Of a stretch of 64,000 bases of DNA, positions 11,567 through 62,077 are shown piece by piece. The stretch's first letter is position 1. Each line of letters begins with the position of its first letter. This DNA is from Prauserella salsuginis. Lineage in GTDB: Bacteria > Actinomycetota > Actinomycetes > Mycobacteriales > Pseudonocardiaceae. The notes below the pieces were generated by a model, which saw only the letters and a program-made list of their open reading frames with translations, was not told the DNA's origin and did not search any database. The DNA lies in NCBI RefSeq assembly GCF_024648885.1, contig NZ_JANBBF010000013.1, positions 124,001 through 188,000 on the forward strand, given 5' to 3'. The position numbers and the translations under genes are program-made.

Positions 11567-11611
11567 CAAGTCTCCTTTCGGATACCTTGGCAGGCAGCCG
11601 CGGAGCCGGTC

Positions 11612-11739
11612 GTCCGAAAACAGGGCCGTTCGAACACTGGAACGTTCGAACACTGGGCCGTCGGAGTGCTGGGCCGTCCGAGCACTGGGCCCTTCGAACA
11701 CTGGGCCCTTCGAACACTGGGCCGTCCGAGTGCTGGGCC
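11612..11739. repeat. 16-bp tandem repeats (8 units) before the STAS gene
   Basis: Eight contiguous units of a 16-bp motif, consensus GTTCGAACACTGGGCC with variants GTCCGAGCACTGGGCC and GTCGGAGTGCTGGGCC; a ninth, decayed unit follows. Most units contain TTCGAA or TCCGA. The array begins about 45 bp before the chosen STAS start. Confidence 0.9.
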
Positions 11740-11819
11740 GTCCGAACATCTAGTACGAGATCGCCAGCGGCCACCCGCAATGGGTAGTGAGCCGGCTGGC
11801 GTTTTCAACCGTGCCGCTT

Positions 11820-29300: not shown

Positions 29301-29346
29301 CCCGACCTGGCCCCTGCGTGGCAGGACTCGTGTTAAGCATTGCGGG

Positions 29347-29438
29347 GCCCGTGTCGCGGTTCCCGGGGCCGGTGTCGTGGTTCCCGGGGCGCGTGGTGCG
29401 GTTCCAGGGTTCTGTGTTGCGCGTTGTGGTTTCCGGGG
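29347..29438. repeat. 21-bp tandem units downstream of menG
   Basis: Three contiguous units (29347, 29368, 29389) of the type GCCCGTGTCGCGGTTCCCGG plus G, then an 8-bp gap and a fourth unit ending at 29438. The same unit type recurs inside ddaH and around the VOC gene. Confidence 0.85.
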
Positions 29439-29444
29439 TGACAC

Positions 29445-29595
29445 GCCCGTCGCCCGACCACCACCCCCCAATGCCGTGCTCCGCACGGCTGGCCCGCCCG
29501 TCGCCCGACCACCAACCCCTCAACGCCGCGCTCCGCGCGACTGTTCCCGCCCGTCGCCCGACCACCACCCCCCAATGCCGTGCTCCGCACGGCTG
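29445..29595. repeat. Three hairpin-tailed repeats of about 47 bp
   Basis: Copies at 29445-29491, 29496-29543 and 29549-29595. Each starts GCCCGTCGCCCGACCACCA and ends in a TCC-loop hairpin: CCGTGC-TCC-GCACGG in copies 1 and 3, CGCGC-TCC-GCGCG in copy 2. They are relatives of the repeats before menG. Confidence 0.88.
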
Positions 29596-29608
29596 TAAGA
29601 CTGGAACC

Positions 29609-32410: not shown

Positions 32411-33169
32411 ATGGCTGACGAGGACACGCAGAACCCCCGGACCGGAGGGGAGAACTCCAGCGCCGAACGCGCCGAGTCCGGTCTCGAACCGTGGGGTTCG
32501 GAACCGGCCCGCGTGGTCGCCGGTCACGAGCGCAGGGGCATGTTCGGTGTTTCCGGCAGCGGTGACACGTCGGGGTACGGCGGACTGCGCCTGCCCGCGT
32601 ACACGCCCCCGCCCGCGGAACGTCCCTACGGCGGCTGGTTCGACGACTTCGCCGACGAGTTCTACGCCGCGCTCGGGGAGAACGGAATTCCGGCCGAGGC
32701 GGTCCTGCAGGTGACCGTCGACCGCGGTGAGATCACCTTCTACGTCGACCGCGACCACCTCGTCGCGATGTGCCGCGTGCTGCGTGACGACGAGGGGCTG
32801 CGCTTCGAGATGTGCAGCTCGGTGTCCGGTGTGGACTACGGCGAGGACGTGCCGCAGCGGCTGCACTCGGTGTACCACCTGCTGTCGATGACCTATCGGC
32901 GCCGTATCCGCCTCGAGGTCACGATGGACGTCGACGATCCGCACGTGCCGTCCATCGTGGAGGTCTACCCGACGGCGGACTGGCACGAGCGCGAGGCCTA
33001 CGACATGTTCGGCATCGTCTACGACGGCCACCCCGCGCTGACCCGCATCCTCATGCCCGACGACTGGGAAGGGCATCCGCAGCGCAAGGACTACCCGCTC
33101 GGCGGCATCCCCGTGGAGTACAAGGGCGCCGAGATCCCGCCGCCGGAAACCCGGAGGTCGTACTCGTGA
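32411..33169 (+). CDS. nuoC: NuoC, complex I 30-kDa subunit
   Basis: A 252-residue soluble subunit of the Q-module, separate from NuoD as in actinomycetes. The signature is [20 protein letters not shown] followed by [20 protein letters not shown]. The first ~80 residues are an Asn/Glu/Gly-rich extension. Its stop TGA is overlapped by GTG 33166 of a mini-ORF rather than by nuoD directly. Confidence 0.96.
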
Positions 33170-33285
33170 TCTTTCCGCCGAAGTACGTGCTCCCGCTGGA
33201 GGCGCGGAGGACACCGCCGAAGTACGTGCTCCCGCTGGAGGCGCGGAGAGCACCGTCCGCATTCGTCCCGATGGAGGCGCAATGA
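33166..33285 (+). CDS. 39-codon mini-ORF nested between nuoC and nuoD
   Basis: Starts at GTG 33166, overlapping the nuoC stop (GTGA), and ends with a TGA at 33283-33285 that overlaps the nuoD start (ATGA). The 39-residue product repeats a 13-residue unit ([26 protein letters not shown], then a decayed [10 protein letters not shown]). The underlying DNA is a 39-bp tandem repeat, each unit with a GGAGGCG ribosome-site-like motif. It may be translated only to keep ribosomes moving to nuoD. No homologous protein is known to me; whether the peptide itself matters is open. Confidence 0.45.
33175..33284. repeat. 39-bp tandem repeat at the nuoC/nuoD junction
   Basis: Units at 33175-33213 and 33214-33252 are identical over 34 bases (CCGCCGAAGTACGTGCTCCC, then GCTGGAGGCGCGGAG); a third, diverged unit runs to the nuoD ATG. 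A related 39-bp unit occurs at 61999-62068. Confidence 0.92.
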
Positions 33286-34655
33286 CCACTAGCGACCACA
33301 TCGCCGACGTGTCCACCGGCACGGACACGACTCCGGAGGGGTCGGACAGCGCCCCGTACGCCGAGCCGCGGGAGACCACCGAGGGGCCGGTCTACACCGT
33401 CAGCGGCGGTGACTGGGACGACGTGCTCACCGATGCCTCGCACGACGAGCGCATGGTCATCAACATGGGGCCGCAGCACCCGTCGACGCACGGCGTGCTG
33501 CGCCTGGTGCTGGAGATGGAGGGCGAGACCGTCACCCAGCTCCGTTCGGTGATCGGCTACCTGCACACGGGTATCGAGAAGAACTGCGAGTACCGCACGT
33601 GGACGCAGGGCGTCACGTTCGTGACGCGCATGGACTACCTGTCTCCGCTGTTCAACGAGATGGGCTACTGCCTTGCGGTGGAGAAGCTGCTGGAACTCGA
33701 GGTTCCTCGCCGTGCGCAGCTGTTGCGGGTACTGCTCATGGAGATCAACCGCATCGGTTCGCACTTCGTCTACATCGCCACCGGCGGTATGGAGCTCGGC
33801 GCCACGACGGCGATGACGCTCGGCTTCCGCGAGCGGGAAGAGGTGCTGCACCTGCTCGAACACCTCACCGGCCTGCGGATGAACCACGCGTTCATCCGGC
33901 CCGGCGGGCTGGCGCAGGACATGCCGGACGACTTCGTCGAGAAGGTCACCGAGTTCTGCAAGGTCATGGACGAGCGGCTGCCGCTCTACGACAAGCTCTT
34001 CACCGGCCAGCCGATCTGGCGGAACCGGCTCAAGGGCGTGGGTTACCTGCCGCTCGACGCGTGCCTGGCTCTCGGCATCACCGGTCCGGTGCTGCGGTCG
34101 GCCGGTGTGGCGTGGGACCTGCGCAAGACCGACCCCTACTCCTGCTACGACGAGTTCGACTTCGAGGTGCCGACGTCGACCGACGCCGACTGCTGGGCCC
34201 GCTACCTGCTGCGCGTCGAGGAGATGCGCCAGTCGCTGCGGATCATCCGGCAGGTCCTCGAGAAGCTCGAGCCCGGTCCGGTGATGGTCGAGGACCGCAA
34301 GGTCGCCTGGCCCGCGCAGCTGTCGGTCTCCAGTGACGGCATGGGCAACTCGCTCGATCACGTCCGCAAGATCATGGGCCAGTCCATGGAGTCGCTGATC
34401 CACCACTTCAAGCTGGTCACCGAGGGATTCCGGGTGCCGCCGGGCCAGGTGTACTCGACGGTCGAGTCGCCGCGCGGCGAACTCGGTTTCCACCTCGTCT
34501 CCGACGGCGGTACGCGGCCGATGCGGGTGCACGTGCGCGAACCGAGCTTCGTCAACCTCCAGTCGATGCCCGCGATGTCGGAGGGCGGCCTCGTCGCCGA
34601 CGTCATCGCGGCCGTCGCGTCGATCGACCCGGTGATGGGGGGAGTGGACCGATGA
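33282..34655 (+). CDS. nuoD: NuoD, complex I 49-kDa subunit
   Basis: A 457-residue subunit forming the quinone-binding pocket with NuoB. Conserved stretches: [60 protein letters not shown] and the end [11 protein letters not shown]. The N-terminal ~55 residues are a variable acidic extension. The ATG at 33282 overlaps the mini-ORF stop; the degenerate repeat supplies GATGGAGGCGCA as ribosome site. It overlaps nuoE by four bases. Confidence 0.97.
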
Positions 34656-35416
34656 GCAGCGACACCACCGGCGGCGGTGCCCCGAGGACGGGCGCCACGT
34701 TCGGCGAGGACACGATCGCCGACGCGCGGGAGCTGATCGCGCGGTACCCGCAGTCGCGGTCCGCGCTGCTGCCACTACTGCACCTGGTGCAGTCCGTGGA
34801 AGGGCACGTCAGTCAGGAGGGCATGGCCTTCTGCGCCCAGCAGCTCGGGCTGTCGGAAGCCGAGGTCGCGGCCGTCGCGACGTTCTACACGATGTACAAG
34901 CGCAAGCCGTGCGGCGAGCACCTGGTGAGCGTGTGCACGAACACGCTGTGCGCGGCGATGGGCGGCGACGCGATCTACAAGCGACTCCAGGAGCATCTCG
35001 GTTCCGACGGCGCGCCGCTCGGCCACGAGGAGGTCGCGGGCACGCCCGGCGAGAGCGGTTCGCTCATGCTCGAGCACGCCGAATGCCTCGCCGCGTGCGA
35101 CCTGGCTCCGGTGTTGCAGGTCAACTACGAGTACTTCGACAACCAGACCGAACAGAGCGCGGTCGAGCTCGTCGACGCGTTGCGGCGCGGGGACAAGCCG
35201 CATCCGACGCGCGGTGCTCCGCTGTCGGACTTCAAGACCGTCGAGCGGCGACTCGCCGGCCTGTTGCCCGATGACGACGACGAGTTCTGGACCGAAGTGG
35301 ACGGACCGTCGCAGGCGGTCGAGACGGTGCGCGGCGCCCAGCTGGCCGCCGACCGCAACTGGACGGCCCCGCCGGCGCCCGAGGACGTGCCGATGCCGGA
35401 GGTGGAGGCGAAATGA
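34652..35416 (+). CDS. nuoE: NuoE, complex I 24-kDa [2Fe-2S] subunit
   Basis: A 254-residue thioredoxin-fold subunit of the NADH dehydrogenase module. The [2Fe-2S] ligands are C95 and C100 (VCTNTLC) and C145 and C149 ([11 protein letters not shown]). The C-terminal ~80 residues extend past the fold (typical of actinobacterial NuoE). Its stop TGA is overlapped by ATG 35413 of a second mini-ORF. Confidence 0.96.
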
Positions 35417-35493
35417 ACGACCATCGCGCACTCATTGTTCATGGAGCCGACCGGGTGCGGGTGTCCCGCAGGACACGGGTGGAGGCGAAATGA
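35413..35493 (+). CDS. 26-codon mini-ORF nested between nuoE and nuoF
   Basis: Starts at ATG 35413 in an ATGA overlap with the nuoE stop and ends with the TGA at 35491-35493 that overlaps the nuoF start (ATGA). Peptide: [20 protein letters not shown] then TRVEAK. The 16-bp sequence GGTGGAGGCGAAATGA, carrying ribosome site and start, is present at both ends (35401-35416 and 35478-35493), so the insert looks like a duplicated junction. The insert is 77 bp, one short of 26 codons, which is what a stop/start nest requires. Product function unknown. Confidence 0.45.
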   Translation: MNDHRALIVHGADRVRVSRRTRVEAK

Positions 35494-53867: not shown

Positions 53868-54932
53868 CTATTCGACCGTCCAGGTGTCCTTGCCCGTGAG
53901 CAGGGCCTGCAGGTCGCCCGGCTTGGCTTCCTGCGCCTGCCGCACCTGGGCGCGGGCCTGGTCGTCGTAGGTCTCGCGGTCGACCTGGCGGAAAATGCCG
54001 GTCGGGATGTGGTTGAGGTGCTGGTCGCCGAGGCGGGACAGCGCGAACCCGTACGCCGTGTCGTCGATCGACGGGTCGTGCACGACGAGGTTGTCCTCAC
54101 CGATGTCGGCGACCTTGCCGACGTCGAGGCCGCCGTACCCGGTGGTGGTGACGCCGAACTCGCCCTCGGGGCCGAACCGGATCGGCTCACCCGGGGTGAG
54201 CGGGATGAGTCGCTGTGCGGCCTCGCCGGGGTCCTTCAGCATGTCGAACGCGCCGTCGTTGAAGATCGGGCAGTTCTGGTAGATCTCCACGACCGCGCTG
54301 CCGCGGTGCTGCGCGGCGGCGGTGAGCACCTCGGTGAGGCCCTTCTTGTCCGAATCCATCGCGCGGCCCACGAACGTGGCCTCGGCACCCAGCGCGAGCG
54401 AGACGGGGTTGAACGGCGTGTCCACCGATCCCATCGGGGTCGACTTGGTGACCTTGCCCGGCTCGGAGGTCGGCGAGTACTGGCCCTTCGTCAGACCGTA
54501 GATCCGGTTGTTGAACAGCAGGATCTTCAGGTTGACGTTGCGGCGCAGTGCGTGGATGAGGTGGTTGCCGCCGATGGAGAGGGCGTCGCCGTCGCCGGTG
54601 ACGACCCACACCGACAGGTCCGGCCGGGTCGTGGCCAGGCCGGTCGCGATCGACGGCGCGCGGCCGTGGATCGAGTGCATGCCGTAGGTGTTCATGTAGT
54701 ACGGGAACCGGCTCGAGCAGCCGATCCCGGAGATGAACACGATGTTCTCGCGCTTGAGGCCCAGCGTCGGCAGGAACGACTGGATGGTGTTGAGCACGAT
54801 GTAGTCACCGCACCCCGGGCACCAGCGCACTTCCTGGTCGGACTTGTACTCCTTGGCCTTCTGCGGCTCGTCGGTCGTGGGGACCAGATCGAGTCCGCCC
54901 ATGCTGGGCAGGCCCAGGTCGGTGGCGGTCAT
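53868..54932 (-). CDS. korB: KorB, 2-oxoglutarate:ferredoxin oxidoreductase beta subunit
   Basis: A 354-residue subunit with thiamine diphosphate and a [4Fe-4S] cluster. Marks: VRWCPGCGDYIVLNTIQSFL (first Cys pair), VFISGIGCSSRFPYYMNTYG (third Cys) and VWVVTGDGDALSIGGNHLIH (ThDP GDG motif). With KorA it converts 2-oxoglutarate to succinyl-CoA with reduced ferredoxin, an oxygen-tolerant entry used by actinobacteria. Its ATG overlaps the korA stop (ATGA). Confidence 0.93.
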   Translation of the reverse strand: MTATDLGLPSMGGLDLVPTTDEPQKAKEYKSDQEVRWCPGCGDYIVLNTIQSFLPTLGLKRENIVFISGIGCSSRFPYYMNTYGMHSIHGRAPSIATGLATTRPDLSVWVVTGDGDALSIGGNHLIHALRRNVNLKILLFNNRIYGLTKGQYSPTSEPGKVTKSTPMGSVDTPFNPVSLALGAEATFVGRAMDSDKKGLTEVLTAAAQHRGSAVVEIYQNCPIFNDGAFDMLKDPGEAAQRLIPLTPGEPIRFGPEGEFGVTTTGYGGLDVGKVADIGEDNLVVHDPSIDDTAYGFALSRLGDQHLNHIPTGIFRQVDRETYDDQARAQVRQAQEAKPGDLQALLTGKDTWTVE

Positions 54933-56845
54933 ACTGCGGTGACCTCCCTGATGATGTCGGTGAAGACGCCTTCGAGTTCTTCGGCCTTGAAGGGCAGCCC
55001 GGCGACCTTGTTGTAGGACTGGATGTCGGTCAGGTATTTGGCGCGCAGCAGCATCGACAGCTGGCCGAGGTTCATCTCGGGTACGACCACGTGGTCGTAC
55101 GAGGCGAGCACCTCGCCGAGGTTGGCCGGCAGCGGGTTGAGGTGGCGCAGGTGGGCCTGGGCGATCGGCATGCCCTTGGCCCGTACCCGCCGCGCCGCGG
55201 CGCCGATCGGCCCGTAGGTCGAACCCCAGCCGAGCACCAGCACGCGCGCGTTGCCGTTGGGATCGTCGACCTCGAGGTCGGGCACCTCGATGCCGTCGAC
55301 CTTCGCCTGGCGCAGCCGCACCATCTTGTCGTGGTTGTCGGGGTCGTAGGAGATGTTGCCCTTGCCCTCGGCCTTCTCCAGACCGCCGATGCGGTGCTGC
55401 AGCCCCGCCGTGCCGGGCAGCGCCCACTCGCGGGCCAGGGTCTCCGGGTCGCGCTGGTACGGCCAGTGTTCGCCGGAACCGTCGGGCGCGTTGGGCTCGG
55501 ACGCGAACGTCACCGACAGGTCGGGCAGCGTCGACACGTCCGGGATCAGCCACGGCTCGGAGCCGTTGGCGATCGCGCCGTCGGAGAGCAGCAGCACCGG
55601 CGTGCGGTAGGTCAGCGCGATGCGGGTCGCTTCGAGGGCGATGTCGAAGCAGTCGGCAGGGGTGGCCGGGGCGATGATCGGTACCGGGCACTCACCGTTG
55701 CGGCCGAAGTAGGCCTGCAGCAGGTCGGCCTGTTCGGTCTTGGTCGGCAGTCCGGTCGACGGGCCGCCGCGCTGCACGTCGATGACCACCAGCGGCAGCT
55801 CGGTCATCACGCCGAGCCCGATCGTCTCGGCCTTCAGCGCGATCCCGGGACCGGACGTCGAGGTGACGCCTAGCGCTCCGCCGTAGGCGGCGCCGAGGGC
55901 TGCTCCGATGCCGGCGATCTCGTCCTCGGCCTGGAACGTGGTGATGCCGAAGTTCTTGTGCTTGGACAGCTCGTGCAGCACGTCGGAGGCCGGCGTGATC
56001 GGGTACGTGCCCAACAGCACTGGCAGCTGGGACTGCTGCCCGGCCGCGACGATGCCGTAGGCCAGCGCCGTGTTGCCCGTGATCTGCCGGTAGGTGCCCT
56101 GCGGCAGCTTGGCGGGGGCGATCTCGAACGTCGTGCCGAACGCCTCGGTGGTCTCGCCGTAGTACCAGCCTGCGCGGAAGGCGAGCACGTTGGCCTCGGC
56201 GACCTCGGGCTTCTTGGCGAACTTCTCGCGCAGGAACGCCTCGGTGCCTTCGGTCGGCCGGTGGTACATCCACGACAGCAACCCGAGGGCGAACATGTTC
56301 TTGCAGCGCTCGGCGTCCTTCTTGCCGAGGCCGGTGTCGGCCAGCGCACCCTGGGTGAGGGTCGACATGGCGACCTCGTGCACCTCGAACGCCGACAGCG
56401 AGTCGTCCTCGAGCGGGTTCGACTCGTAGTCGACCTTGGCCAGGTTGCGCTTGCCGAACTCGTCGGTGTTGACGATGACGGTGCCGCCCTTGGGCACGTC
56501 GCCGATGTTGGCCTTGAGGGCCGCCGGGTTCATCGCCACGAGCACGTCGGGGCGGTCGCCGGGGGTGAGGATGTCGTAGTCGGCGAAGTGCACCTGGAAG
56601 CTCGAGACGCCGGGGATGGTGCCCTGGGGTGCGCGGATCTCCGCGGGGAAGTTCGGCAGCGTCGCGAGGTCGTTGCCGAACGCGGCGGCTTCCGACGTGA
56701 ACCGGTCGCCGGTCAGCTGCATGCCGTCGCCGGAGTCGCCGGCGAACCGGATCACGACACGCTCGAGCCGGTTGACCTCTGTCGGTCGGGACGCCGAAAG
56801 CGCCTCGGTGCCGGCTGTTGCGCTGCCGTTCGCACTCGTGCTCAT
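54929..56845 (-). CDS. korA: KorA, 2-oxoglutarate:ferredoxin oxidoreductase alpha subunit
   Basis: A 638-residue fused gamma-alpha subunit. The N-terminal gamma domain has VVIRFAGDSGDGMQLTGDRF; the alpha domain has TYPITPASDVLHELSKHKNF, FQAEDEIAGIGAALGAAYGG and GVTSTSGPGIALKAETIGLG. VVIDVQRGGPSTGLPTKTEQ is the CoA/ThDP interface typical of KorA. The start MSTSANGSATAG at 56845 has GAGAGGGA upstream; an in-frame continuation to 57013 lacks support. An iron-box-like site lies about 90-105 bp upstream. Confidence 0.93.
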   Translation of the reverse strand: MSTSANGSATAGTEALSASRPTEVNRLERVVIRFAGDSGDGMQLTGDRFTSEAAAFGNDLATLPNFPAEIRAPQGTIPGVSSFQVHFADYDILTPGDRPDVLVAMNPAALKANIGDVPKGGTVIVNTDEFGKRNLAKVDYESNPLEDDSLSAFEVHEVAMSTLTQGALADTGLGKKDAERCKNMFALGLLSWMYHRPTEGTEAFLREKFAKKPEVAEANVLAFRAGWYYGETTEAFGTTFEIAPAKLPQGTYRQITGNTALAYGIVAAGQQSQLPVLLGTYPITPASDVLHELSKHKNFGITTFQAEDEIAGIGAALGAAYGGALGVTSTSGPGIALKAETIGLGVMTELPLVVIDVQRGGPSTGLPTKTEQADLLQAYFGRNGECPVPIIAPATPADCFDIALEATRIALTYRTPVLLLSDGAIANGSEPWLIPDVSTLPDLSVTFASEPNAPDGSGEHWPYQRDPETLAREWALPGTAGLQHRIGGLEKAEGKGNISYDPDNHDKMVRLRQAKVDGIEVPDLEVDDPNGNARVLVLGWGSTYGPIGAAARRVRAKGMPIAQAHLRHLNPLPANLGEVLASYDHVVVPEMNLGQLSMLLRAKYLTDIQSYNKVAGLPFKAEELEGVFTDIIREVTAV

Positions 56846-61274: not shown

Positions 61275-62077
61275 CGGGCCGCCAACGGCGCCATGCCGTA
61301 GGCAGTTTCGAGGTGTTCGGGGGTGAGCACGTCGGCGGGCGCTCCGGCCGCGACGACGGTGCCCGCCATGAGCACCGCGTGGTCGAAGCTGTCCAGCACC
61401 TCGCGCAGGTCGTGGTGCACCGCGATGACCGACACACCCTCACGGCACAGCCTCGTGAGGATCTCCAGCAGCGCCTTCTCGGTGCGCGCGTCGACGGCCG
61501 TGAACGGCTCGTCGAGCACGATGAGGTCCGCACGCTGGGCGAGTGCGCGCGCGAGGAAAACCCGCTGCCGCTGCCCACCGGAAAGTTCGTCGAGCGGCCG
61601 GTCCGCCAGGTCCGCGACCCCGACCTGCGCCATCGCGCCCGCCACGCAGTCGTCGTCCGCGGGAGTCAGCCTGCGCAGCCAACCCCGGTGCGGGTAGCGG
61701 CCCATCTCGACGACCTGCACGGCAGTGATGGGGAAGTCCTTCGCGACGGCATCGGACTGCGGCACATAGGCCACGCGCTTTCGGACGCGGCGCAACGGCT
61801 GTCCCAGCCAGCGCACGGTCCCACGCACCGACGGCACGAGCCCGAGCGCCGCCTTGACCATCGTCGACTTGCCCGCCCCGTTCGGCCCGACGACGGCACT
61901 GAGCACGCCGGCGGGAATCTCGACGTCGACGCCGGTCAGCACGGGTCGCCCGCCGTAGGAGGCGCTCATGCCCTGCAGTCGGAGTGCCGGTTCGGTCATG
62001 CGTCCGCCTCCCGTGCGAAGAAGTACGTCGTCGGTGCCACCTGCCGCCTCCGCGGGAGCAAGTACGTCGTCGGTCAT
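61271..62077 (-). CDS. Metal ABC transporter ATP-binding protein
   Basis: ATPase of the metal importer: Walker A GPNGAGKSTMVKAALGLVPS, signature LSGGQRQRVFLARALAQ, Walker B LIVLDEPFTAVD and the switch His in VIAVHHDLREVLD. From ATG 62077 (ATGA overlap with the binding-protein gene) it has 268 residues. The first 26 are two 13-residue repeats (TDDVLAPAEAAGG, TDDVLLRTGGGRM) encoded by 39-bp DNA units. The conserved protein begins at MTEPALRLQGMSASYGG (ATG 61999, 242 residues), behind GGGAGGCGG. Either start may be used. Confidence 0.9.
   Translation of the reverse strand: MTDDVLAPAEAAGGTDDVLLRTGGGRMTEPALRLQGMSASYGGRPVLTGVDVEIPAGVLSAVVGPNGAGKSTMVKAALGLVPSVRGTVRWLGQPLRRVRKRVAYVPQSDAVAKDFPITAVQVVEMGRYPHRGWLRRLTPADDDCVAGAMAQVGVADLADRPLDELSGGQRQRVFLARALAQRADLIVLDEPFTAVDARTEKALLEILTRLCREGVSVIAVHHDLREVLDSFDHAVLMAGTVVAAGAPADVLTPEHLETAYGMAPLAAR
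61999..62068 (-). repeat. 39-bp repeat at the metal-transporter junction
   Basis: On the minus strand GACGTACTTGCTCCCGCGGA... begins at 62068 and again, diverged, at 62029, a 39-bp period. Each unit contains GGAGGCGG. It shares TGCTCCCGC(T)GGAGGCG and GTAC with the nuoC/nuoD repeat, which has the same period. Confidence 0.75.

Follow-up and report, generated by a model that had tools for sequence, protein, structure and literature searches.

A Mini-ORF between nuoC and nuoD of Prauserella salsuginis as a Probable Array of a Dispersed Repeat

A Repeat Array Nested between nuoC and nuoD

In the window, by which we mean the whole stretch of 64,000 nucleotides analyzed here (from a genome of 5.64 Mb in 15 contigs), nuoC and nuoD are separated by a mini-ORF. 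It is likely a small tandem array of a 38/39-bp repeat that is dispersed in Pseudonocardiaceae and often lies at the DTGA stop/start sites of operon genes, DTGA standing for ATGA, GTGA, or TTGA. Comparison of sequences establishes the anatomy of this repeat, its dispersal, the existence of empty and filled sites, its single orientation at nested junctions, and the maintenance of the overlaps. The micro-ORFs probably allow ribosomes to continue from one gene to the next. The features of the locus are as follows:

32411–33169, plus strand: nuoC (Pfam Complex1_30kDa, E 1e-48); its final four bases, GTGA, double as the mini-ORF start
33166–33285, plus strand: mini-ORF of 39 codons, between the nuoC GTGA (33166–33169) and the nuoD ATGA (33282–33285)
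33175–33213, plus strand: repeat unit 1, 39 bp, with a 30-bp core (33175–33204)
33214–33252, plus strand: repeat unit 2, 39 bp, with its core at 33214–33243
33253–33279, plus strand: decayed unit 3, ending in GGAGGCG, as read from the sequence
33282–34655, plus strand: nuoD (Pfam Complex1_49kDa, E 9.2e-116); its opening ATGA contains the mini-ORF stop

The original prediction had placed here a 39-codon ORF joined by GTGA to the nuoC stop and by ATGA to the nuoD start, and its coordinates are correct: the window sequence reads from a GTG at 33166 through 39 sense codons to a TGA at 33283–33285. The predicted insert length, one short of a codon multiple, is also found, since the distance from the start of the mini-ORF to that of nuoD is 116 bp, or 3 × 39 − 1. 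Two 39-bp units and a decayed third are present as described, except that the first two are not identical. They agree at 37 of 39 positions, the first 35 bases being equal and two of the last four different (95% matches according to the tandem repeat finder). The third unit is diverged and 3 bp shorter. Each unit carries the GGAGGCG site attributed to it (33198–33204, 33237–33243, and 33273–33279), and 4 nt separate the last GGAGG from the nuoD ATG. When up to three mismatches were allowed, the core pattern matched only units 1 and 2 within the window. Shuffled versions of the window gave a mean of 0.05 matches, and two matches were reached in 1 of 100 shuffles. These repeat units are not due to chance. 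Other tandem repeats occur in the window at 11611–11748, 29343–29409, and 29444–29596, with periods of 16, 21, and 52 bp; by eye, they are unrelated to the 38/39-bp unit.

The nuoC–nuoD Junction in Relatives

Among 80 named relatives, nuoC and nuoD are joined by a direct DTGA overlap in 64, by chains of nested ORFs in 13, and by other arrangements in two, the remaining locus being cut off. As the direct overlap is found in 64 of the 80, the insert is the derived state. In all 15 non-direct junctions among the 79 readable relatives, the last ORF before nuoD runs with its stop into the nuoD start, overlapping it by exactly DTGA in 13 and by about 11 nt in two. Some stop/start overlap thus precedes nuoD in 79 of 79. 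This architecture agrees with one role originally proposed for the mini-ORF, that of a translational relay, and the comparison suggests that it may act as one.

Seven of the 13 nested chains contain the repeat. The inserts of the other six are unrelated to it, and those of L095 and L097 look like copies of one strain's junction. The repeat-bearing ORF has 52 codons in Prauserella aidingensis, 27 in P. isguenensis, 52 in P. halophila, and 13 in each of P. muralis, P. endophytica, Amycolatopsis acidicola, and Actinophytocola algeriensis. In A. anabasis, counted as direct, a unit is fused in frame to the nuoD start. Repeat-derived sequence is present at this junction in six of the seven genomes of the genus, and both overlaps are intact in four of these six. 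The expectation that unit number would vary while the overlaps persist was borne out, with one to four units across the junctions of relatives. Insert lengths that break the overlap, proposed at the outset as evidence against the idea, do occur: the exact 4-nt overlap with nuoD is gone in P. alba (30 bp after the nuoC stop) and P. rugosa (114 bp). Even so, the mini-ORFs of both species still end within the nuoD start, about 11 nt into the gene. In Pseudonocardia, a 20-codon nested ORF is present once in L095 and L097 and four times in L099; these ORFs repeat the nuoC tail and are unrelated inserts of similar architecture.

A Repeat Family Centered on Pseudonocardiaceae

The first copies elsewhere were found with a loose pattern search. 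We then used two models. R1 is a sequence-only model of 30 columns from 15 aligned unit cores, without DTGA. R2 was built from 43 junction copies. R1 matched 220 of 390 Pseudonocardiaceae genomes at E ≤ 0.05, a threshold at which about 20 chance matches would be expected if the E-values, which are rough, were exact. In a sample of the order, R2 matched 28 of 298 genomes at E ≤ 0.01: 19 belong to Pseudonocardiaceae, two others match strongly, and seven have a single weak match. G046 (22 matches) and G048 (9 matches) are the only genomes of this sample with strong matches outside the family. In a sample of the class, 14 of 296 genomes matched, namely the source genome, a relative, G074 (one match, 2.4e-6), and 12 more genomes that have a single match apiece. 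The best match in these 12, which is the strongest outside the order, is in G782 (E 3.7e-5) and resembles a coding stretch that, from its motif, we take to be of a polyketide synthase; some weak model matches may therefore be look-alikes. From the distribution of R1 and R2 matches, the repeat family centers on Pseudonocardiaceae.

The repeat is dispersed, with several loci per genome. The source genome has seven model matches at three loci, and the model search identified two more diverged units in the window:

61999–62077, minus strand: two further units at the junction of genes for a ZnuA-type binding protein and an ABC ATPase, 78 bp

Both units are in frame with the ABC ATPase, to which they add 26 residues at the N terminus. 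More units are present at this junction in P. isguenensis (L302). A related variant with CCGCTGAGGGC or CCGCCGAGGGC in place of CCGCTGGAGGC was observed in L147, L148, L154, and L155, with as many as five copies of 39 bp, at what seems to be one shared locus of the genus.

Location of the Copies

We examined 118 loci (30 from the R1 search, 80 further ones from its list, and 8 earlier ones). They contained 121 arrays, or 117 after removal of four repeats of the same place; G244, G403, G280, and G108 were left out of the arrays, and L148, L149, and L150 have no array by the pattern of the script. As the 117 arrays are the best-scoring R1 matches listed plus the earlier loci, they favor near-consensus copies. 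A chain was scored when a DTGA gene stop closing an upstream frame of at least 60 codons was followed by micro-ORFs chained by DTGA and by a DTGA-started frame of at least 60 codons. Sixty-eight of the 117 arrays have this organization, with one to four chained micro-ORFs, against 0 of 117 when the arrays were reversed. The 68 junctions, among which a site shared by sister species counts once for each species, form 37 clusters of the downstream gene, so that part of them represent one insertion seen in several species; one of them, L272, looks weak (27 codons, with a 115-codon TTG frame). Micro-ORFs that are all of 10–16 codons were found at 61 of the 117 arrays, as compared with 18 of the 1,015 remaining DTGA stops of these loci; for any micro-ORF length below 60 codons, the counts are 68 of 117 and 130 of 1,015. 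The length was 13 codons in 70 of 89 micro-ORFs.

One unit consists of a DTGA, the core, GGAGGCG, usually 2 to 5 nt, and a second DTGA. This layout brings a start onto the upstream stop, a short ORF, a Shine–Dalgarno-like site, and a stop onto the downstream start. Tandem periods at nested junctions are 38 bp (19 cases), 39 bp (7), 76 bp (1), and 78 bp (1). The 38-bp period is found only in arrays headed by DTGA (the 19 nested junctions and four arrays with another upstream arrangement), and the arrays inside ORFs have a 39-bp period only (3 cases). Of the 49 arrays outside the chains, 23 are embedded in ORFs and lack DTGA, 11 form N-terminal extensions (two of them reversed), 9 have a different DTGA arrangement upstream, 5 have DTGA on the downstream side only, and 1 is unassigned. 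Coupling sites are thus not the sole home of the repeat. The argC–argJ array (L153), one of the 9 with a different upstream arrangement, was scored as non-chain because its 65-codon ORF exceeds the 60-codon gene threshold.

Empty and Filled Sites

At argC–argJ, the source genome carries a 194-bp insert of 39-bp units, forming the 65-codon nested ORF between a GTGA and an ATGA, and all six genus mates have a direct overlap. The converse situation is found in the window:

54926–54937, minus strand: empty site, the ATGA overlap of korA–korB, a 2-oxoacid:acceptor oxidoreductase pair

This pair was named from an alpha subunit above and a beta subunit below the respective NCBIfam cut-off. In a comparison that covers the genus mates other than P. 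halophila and P. rugosa, the site is filled with an additional 38 bp in P. alba, P. isguenensis, and Saccharomonospora sp. CUA-673, and with 161 bp in P. aidingensis. A gene very like korB is the downstream gene in 6 of the 68 nested junctions, and the korA–korB site is apparently filled in other genera too. The P. isguenensis insert consists of a 26-bp core flanked by a 12-bp duplication, GCAGTATGACCG. Over 65 junctions, the identical run around the two DTGA copies has a mean of 6.2, versus 4.77 in shuffled sets (largest of 1,000: 5.51), and runs of at least 9 occur 12 times (shuffle mean 3.2, largest 9). This agreement of the DTGA flanks fits a duplicated target, with a modest signal. The target duplication is clear at korA–korB and only statistical elsewhere.

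Other nuo Loci

A second nested mini-ORF of the window has no match to the repeat models:

35413–35493, plus strand: nested mini-ORF of 26 codons between the nuoE stop (ATGA, 35413–35416) and the nuoF start (ATGA, 35490–35493)

At nuoE–nuoF, 31 of 81 loci have a direct overlap, 18 are nested (four with only 2 codons), 30 have a stop other than DTGA, and 2 are otherwise arranged; at nuoD–nuoE, the overlap is direct in 73 of 81 loci, whereas 3 are nested, 4 have a non-DTGA stop, and 1 is arranged in another way. The nuoE–nuoF mini-ORFs of relatives are read in differing frames and their overlaps persist. Those of P. aidingensis and the window, for example, both have 26 codons with the middle read in different frames. 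The repeat is also found inside nuoG, where it adds 13 residues in P. aidingensis and 26 in P. isguenensis compared with none in the window and P. halophila. P. alba nuoG contains a related, longer insert, and the P. aidingensis nuoF copy is an in-frame extension. Altogether, 51 of the 59 repeat-model matches in the genus fall on the contig that carries nuo, no more than about 33 kb from nuoC–nuoD. This clustering may indicate copying over short distances instead of free transposition.

Regulatory Signals around the Mini-ORF

A regulatory leader, another role proposed for the insert, is not favored by its location between operon genes, by a folding z of +0.26 relative to shuffles, or by Rfam, which gave no match at E ≤ 1 over 32900–33600. 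The promoter and terminator scan of this interval yielded a single terminator-like site, at 33585–33597 on the minus strand. A folded leader or sequestered ribosome site was considered and rejected: six folds had z values between −1.51 and +0.66, the window insert being that at +0.26.

Proposed Mechanism and Alternative Explanations

We propose that the repeat inserts at, or spreads by copying into, DTGA sites between co-directed operon genes. Ribosomes ending nuoC would reinitiate at the GTG at 33166, translate a filler peptide, terminate at 33283–33285, and reinitiate on nuoD, so that the coupling of nuoC and nuoD would survive the 116-bp insert. An untranslated spacer of this length would be expected to abolish coupling; a coupled ORF would not. 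The repeat would thus be a passive relay that makes its own insertion tolerable. Being mobile or copied, it would survive at junctions mainly in those copies that keep the coupling, and arrays would grow and shrink by slippage.

Slippage could also be the whole explanation. In a local tandem duplication, the nuoC-end/nuoD-start segment would have been copied with its ribosome site and selection would have kept the overlaps, with no mobile repeat involved. Tandem arrays of variable unit number are what such a process would leave, and it agrees with the L095, L097, and L099 inserts that repeat the nuoC tail, with nuoE–nuoF mini-ORFs that repeat the nuoE tail VEAK/GTGGAGGCGAAATGA, and with the concentration of the genus matches around nuoC–nuoD. 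However, one and the same core is found at argC–argJ, at korA–korB, at the ABC transporter, in nuoG of relatives, and in many genera. Local duplication is therefore unable to supply all copies, and we consider it unlikely. Another candidate is a REP-like repeat mobilized by a RAYT/IS200-type transposase, with the start-codon position as a by-product. The short dispersed unit and the CCGCC...GGCGG ends of its commonest form recall such elements, but orientation and spacing to gene starts are fixed at nested junctions, folding is weak and for the window copy no better than in shuffles, and Y1_Tnp was not found in five of the seven genus genomes, including the source genome. Y1_Tnp is present in the other two genomes. 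No link between a transposase and the repeat was found, and this origin seems very improbable.

The mini-ORF might instead encode a functional complex I microprotein, as had been suggested, or a small regulatory peptide. It does offer an open frame with a start, a motif resembling a ribosome site, and a stop, and its maintenance at nuoC–nuoD in most of the genus, often with both overlaps, is what a useful peptide would predict. Against this, one DNA gives different peptides at different junctions: the core is read in one frame (TADVLFPAEAA-like) at 56 of the 68 junctions and in another at 12, an argument based on two junctions, as these 12 are nuoC–nuoD (7, window included) and one other (5, PPTYFFPRRRR-like). 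At this other junction the 3′ linker has lengthened along with the 5′ linker, which preserves the overlap and leaves a different peptide. In the first unit of five Prauserella species, amino acid-changing differences exceed silent ones (pN 0.084, pS 0.047; for nuoD, pN 0.017 and pS 0.238), although the sample is small, with 30 bases per species. Pfam gives no match to the peptide, the insert is absent from most named relatives, and the repeat also occurs at loci unrelated to complex I. The peptide is probably filler, without signs of conservation, and a functional product is hardly credible.

We therefore retain the dispersed repeat at stop/start sites as the preferred explanation. It is conceivable, and we suggest it only tentatively, that these repeats are very small selfish elements of a large and so far undescribed Pseudonocardiaceae family, each made of a core of about 26 bp and a duplicated target of about 9–12 bp, which would move into stop/start overlaps without a transposase of their own and would persist because every copy brings a full relay, with a start, 13 codons, a ribosome site, and a stop. 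If so, MIRU-type elements would be a recurrent, independently evolved way of entering operons without uncoupling them.

Comparison with Known Systems

Among the matches listed in our literature search, no title or abstract start describes a 38/39-bp repeat family of Pseudonocardiaceae. REP/RAYT systems differ from the repeat by the absence here of a stable imperfect palindrome, given the z range of the six sequences above, and by the distribution of Y1_Tnp (2/7 genus genomes, the source genome not among them). Rickettsia palindromic elements are small repeats inserted in frame into genes. The 13 residues per 39 bp added inside nuoG of relatives are similar, whereas most sampled copies here are at gene junctions and have no strong palindrome.

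According to two reports, termination–reinitiation at ATGA overlaps couples the translation of co-directed genes, and stop/start overlaps are overrepresented where the genes encode subunits of heteromeric complexes (PMC6728339, PMC10666635). In the E. coli and Haloferax pairs tested, a spacer of about 20 nt almost abolishes overlap-dependent coupling (PMC10666635). The nuoC–nuoD locus has the same 4-nt stop/start overlaps between co-directed genes, and differs in having a filler ORF between them and two or more such overlaps.

By its architecture as read from the sequence, the closest known system appears to be the MIRU. MIRUs have mycobacterial hosts and units of roughly 50–100 bp in variable tandem copy number, whereas the hosts here are Pseudonocardiaceae and the unit, at 38–39 bp, is shorter. 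MIRUs appear mobile and insert at start codons (Supply et al. 1997, as cited in PMC12548453). Their internal ORF is coupled to the gene at −4 nt, and the insertion probably affects that gene very little (PMC12548453). The Pseudonocardiaceae repeat is likewise short and dispersed at many places of the genome. It shows the start-codon position and the internal ORF at −4 nt, exactly so in the window copy and in 68 of the 117 sampled arrays, and the empty and filled sites at nuoC–nuoD, argC–argJ, and korA–korB suggest an apparent mobility. A further difference is that some copies sit in frame inside genes. The comparison was made by description rather than by sequence alignment, and strong matches in the order outside the family are confined to G046 and G048. 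As hosts and unit length differ and sequence homology is not established, we do not claim membership of the MIRU family. The locus shows a strong retention of the stop/start overlap before nuoD, in all 79 readable named relatives, and gene finders could tally such frames as small proteins, though the peptide seems to be filler. A second, shorter MIRU-like family in Prauserella, Amycolatopsis, and relatives makes both the movement of MIRUs and the relevance of their small ORFs testable: its sites are empty in some close relatives and filled in others, its nested junctions show a single orientation, and variants that break the frame occur naturally.
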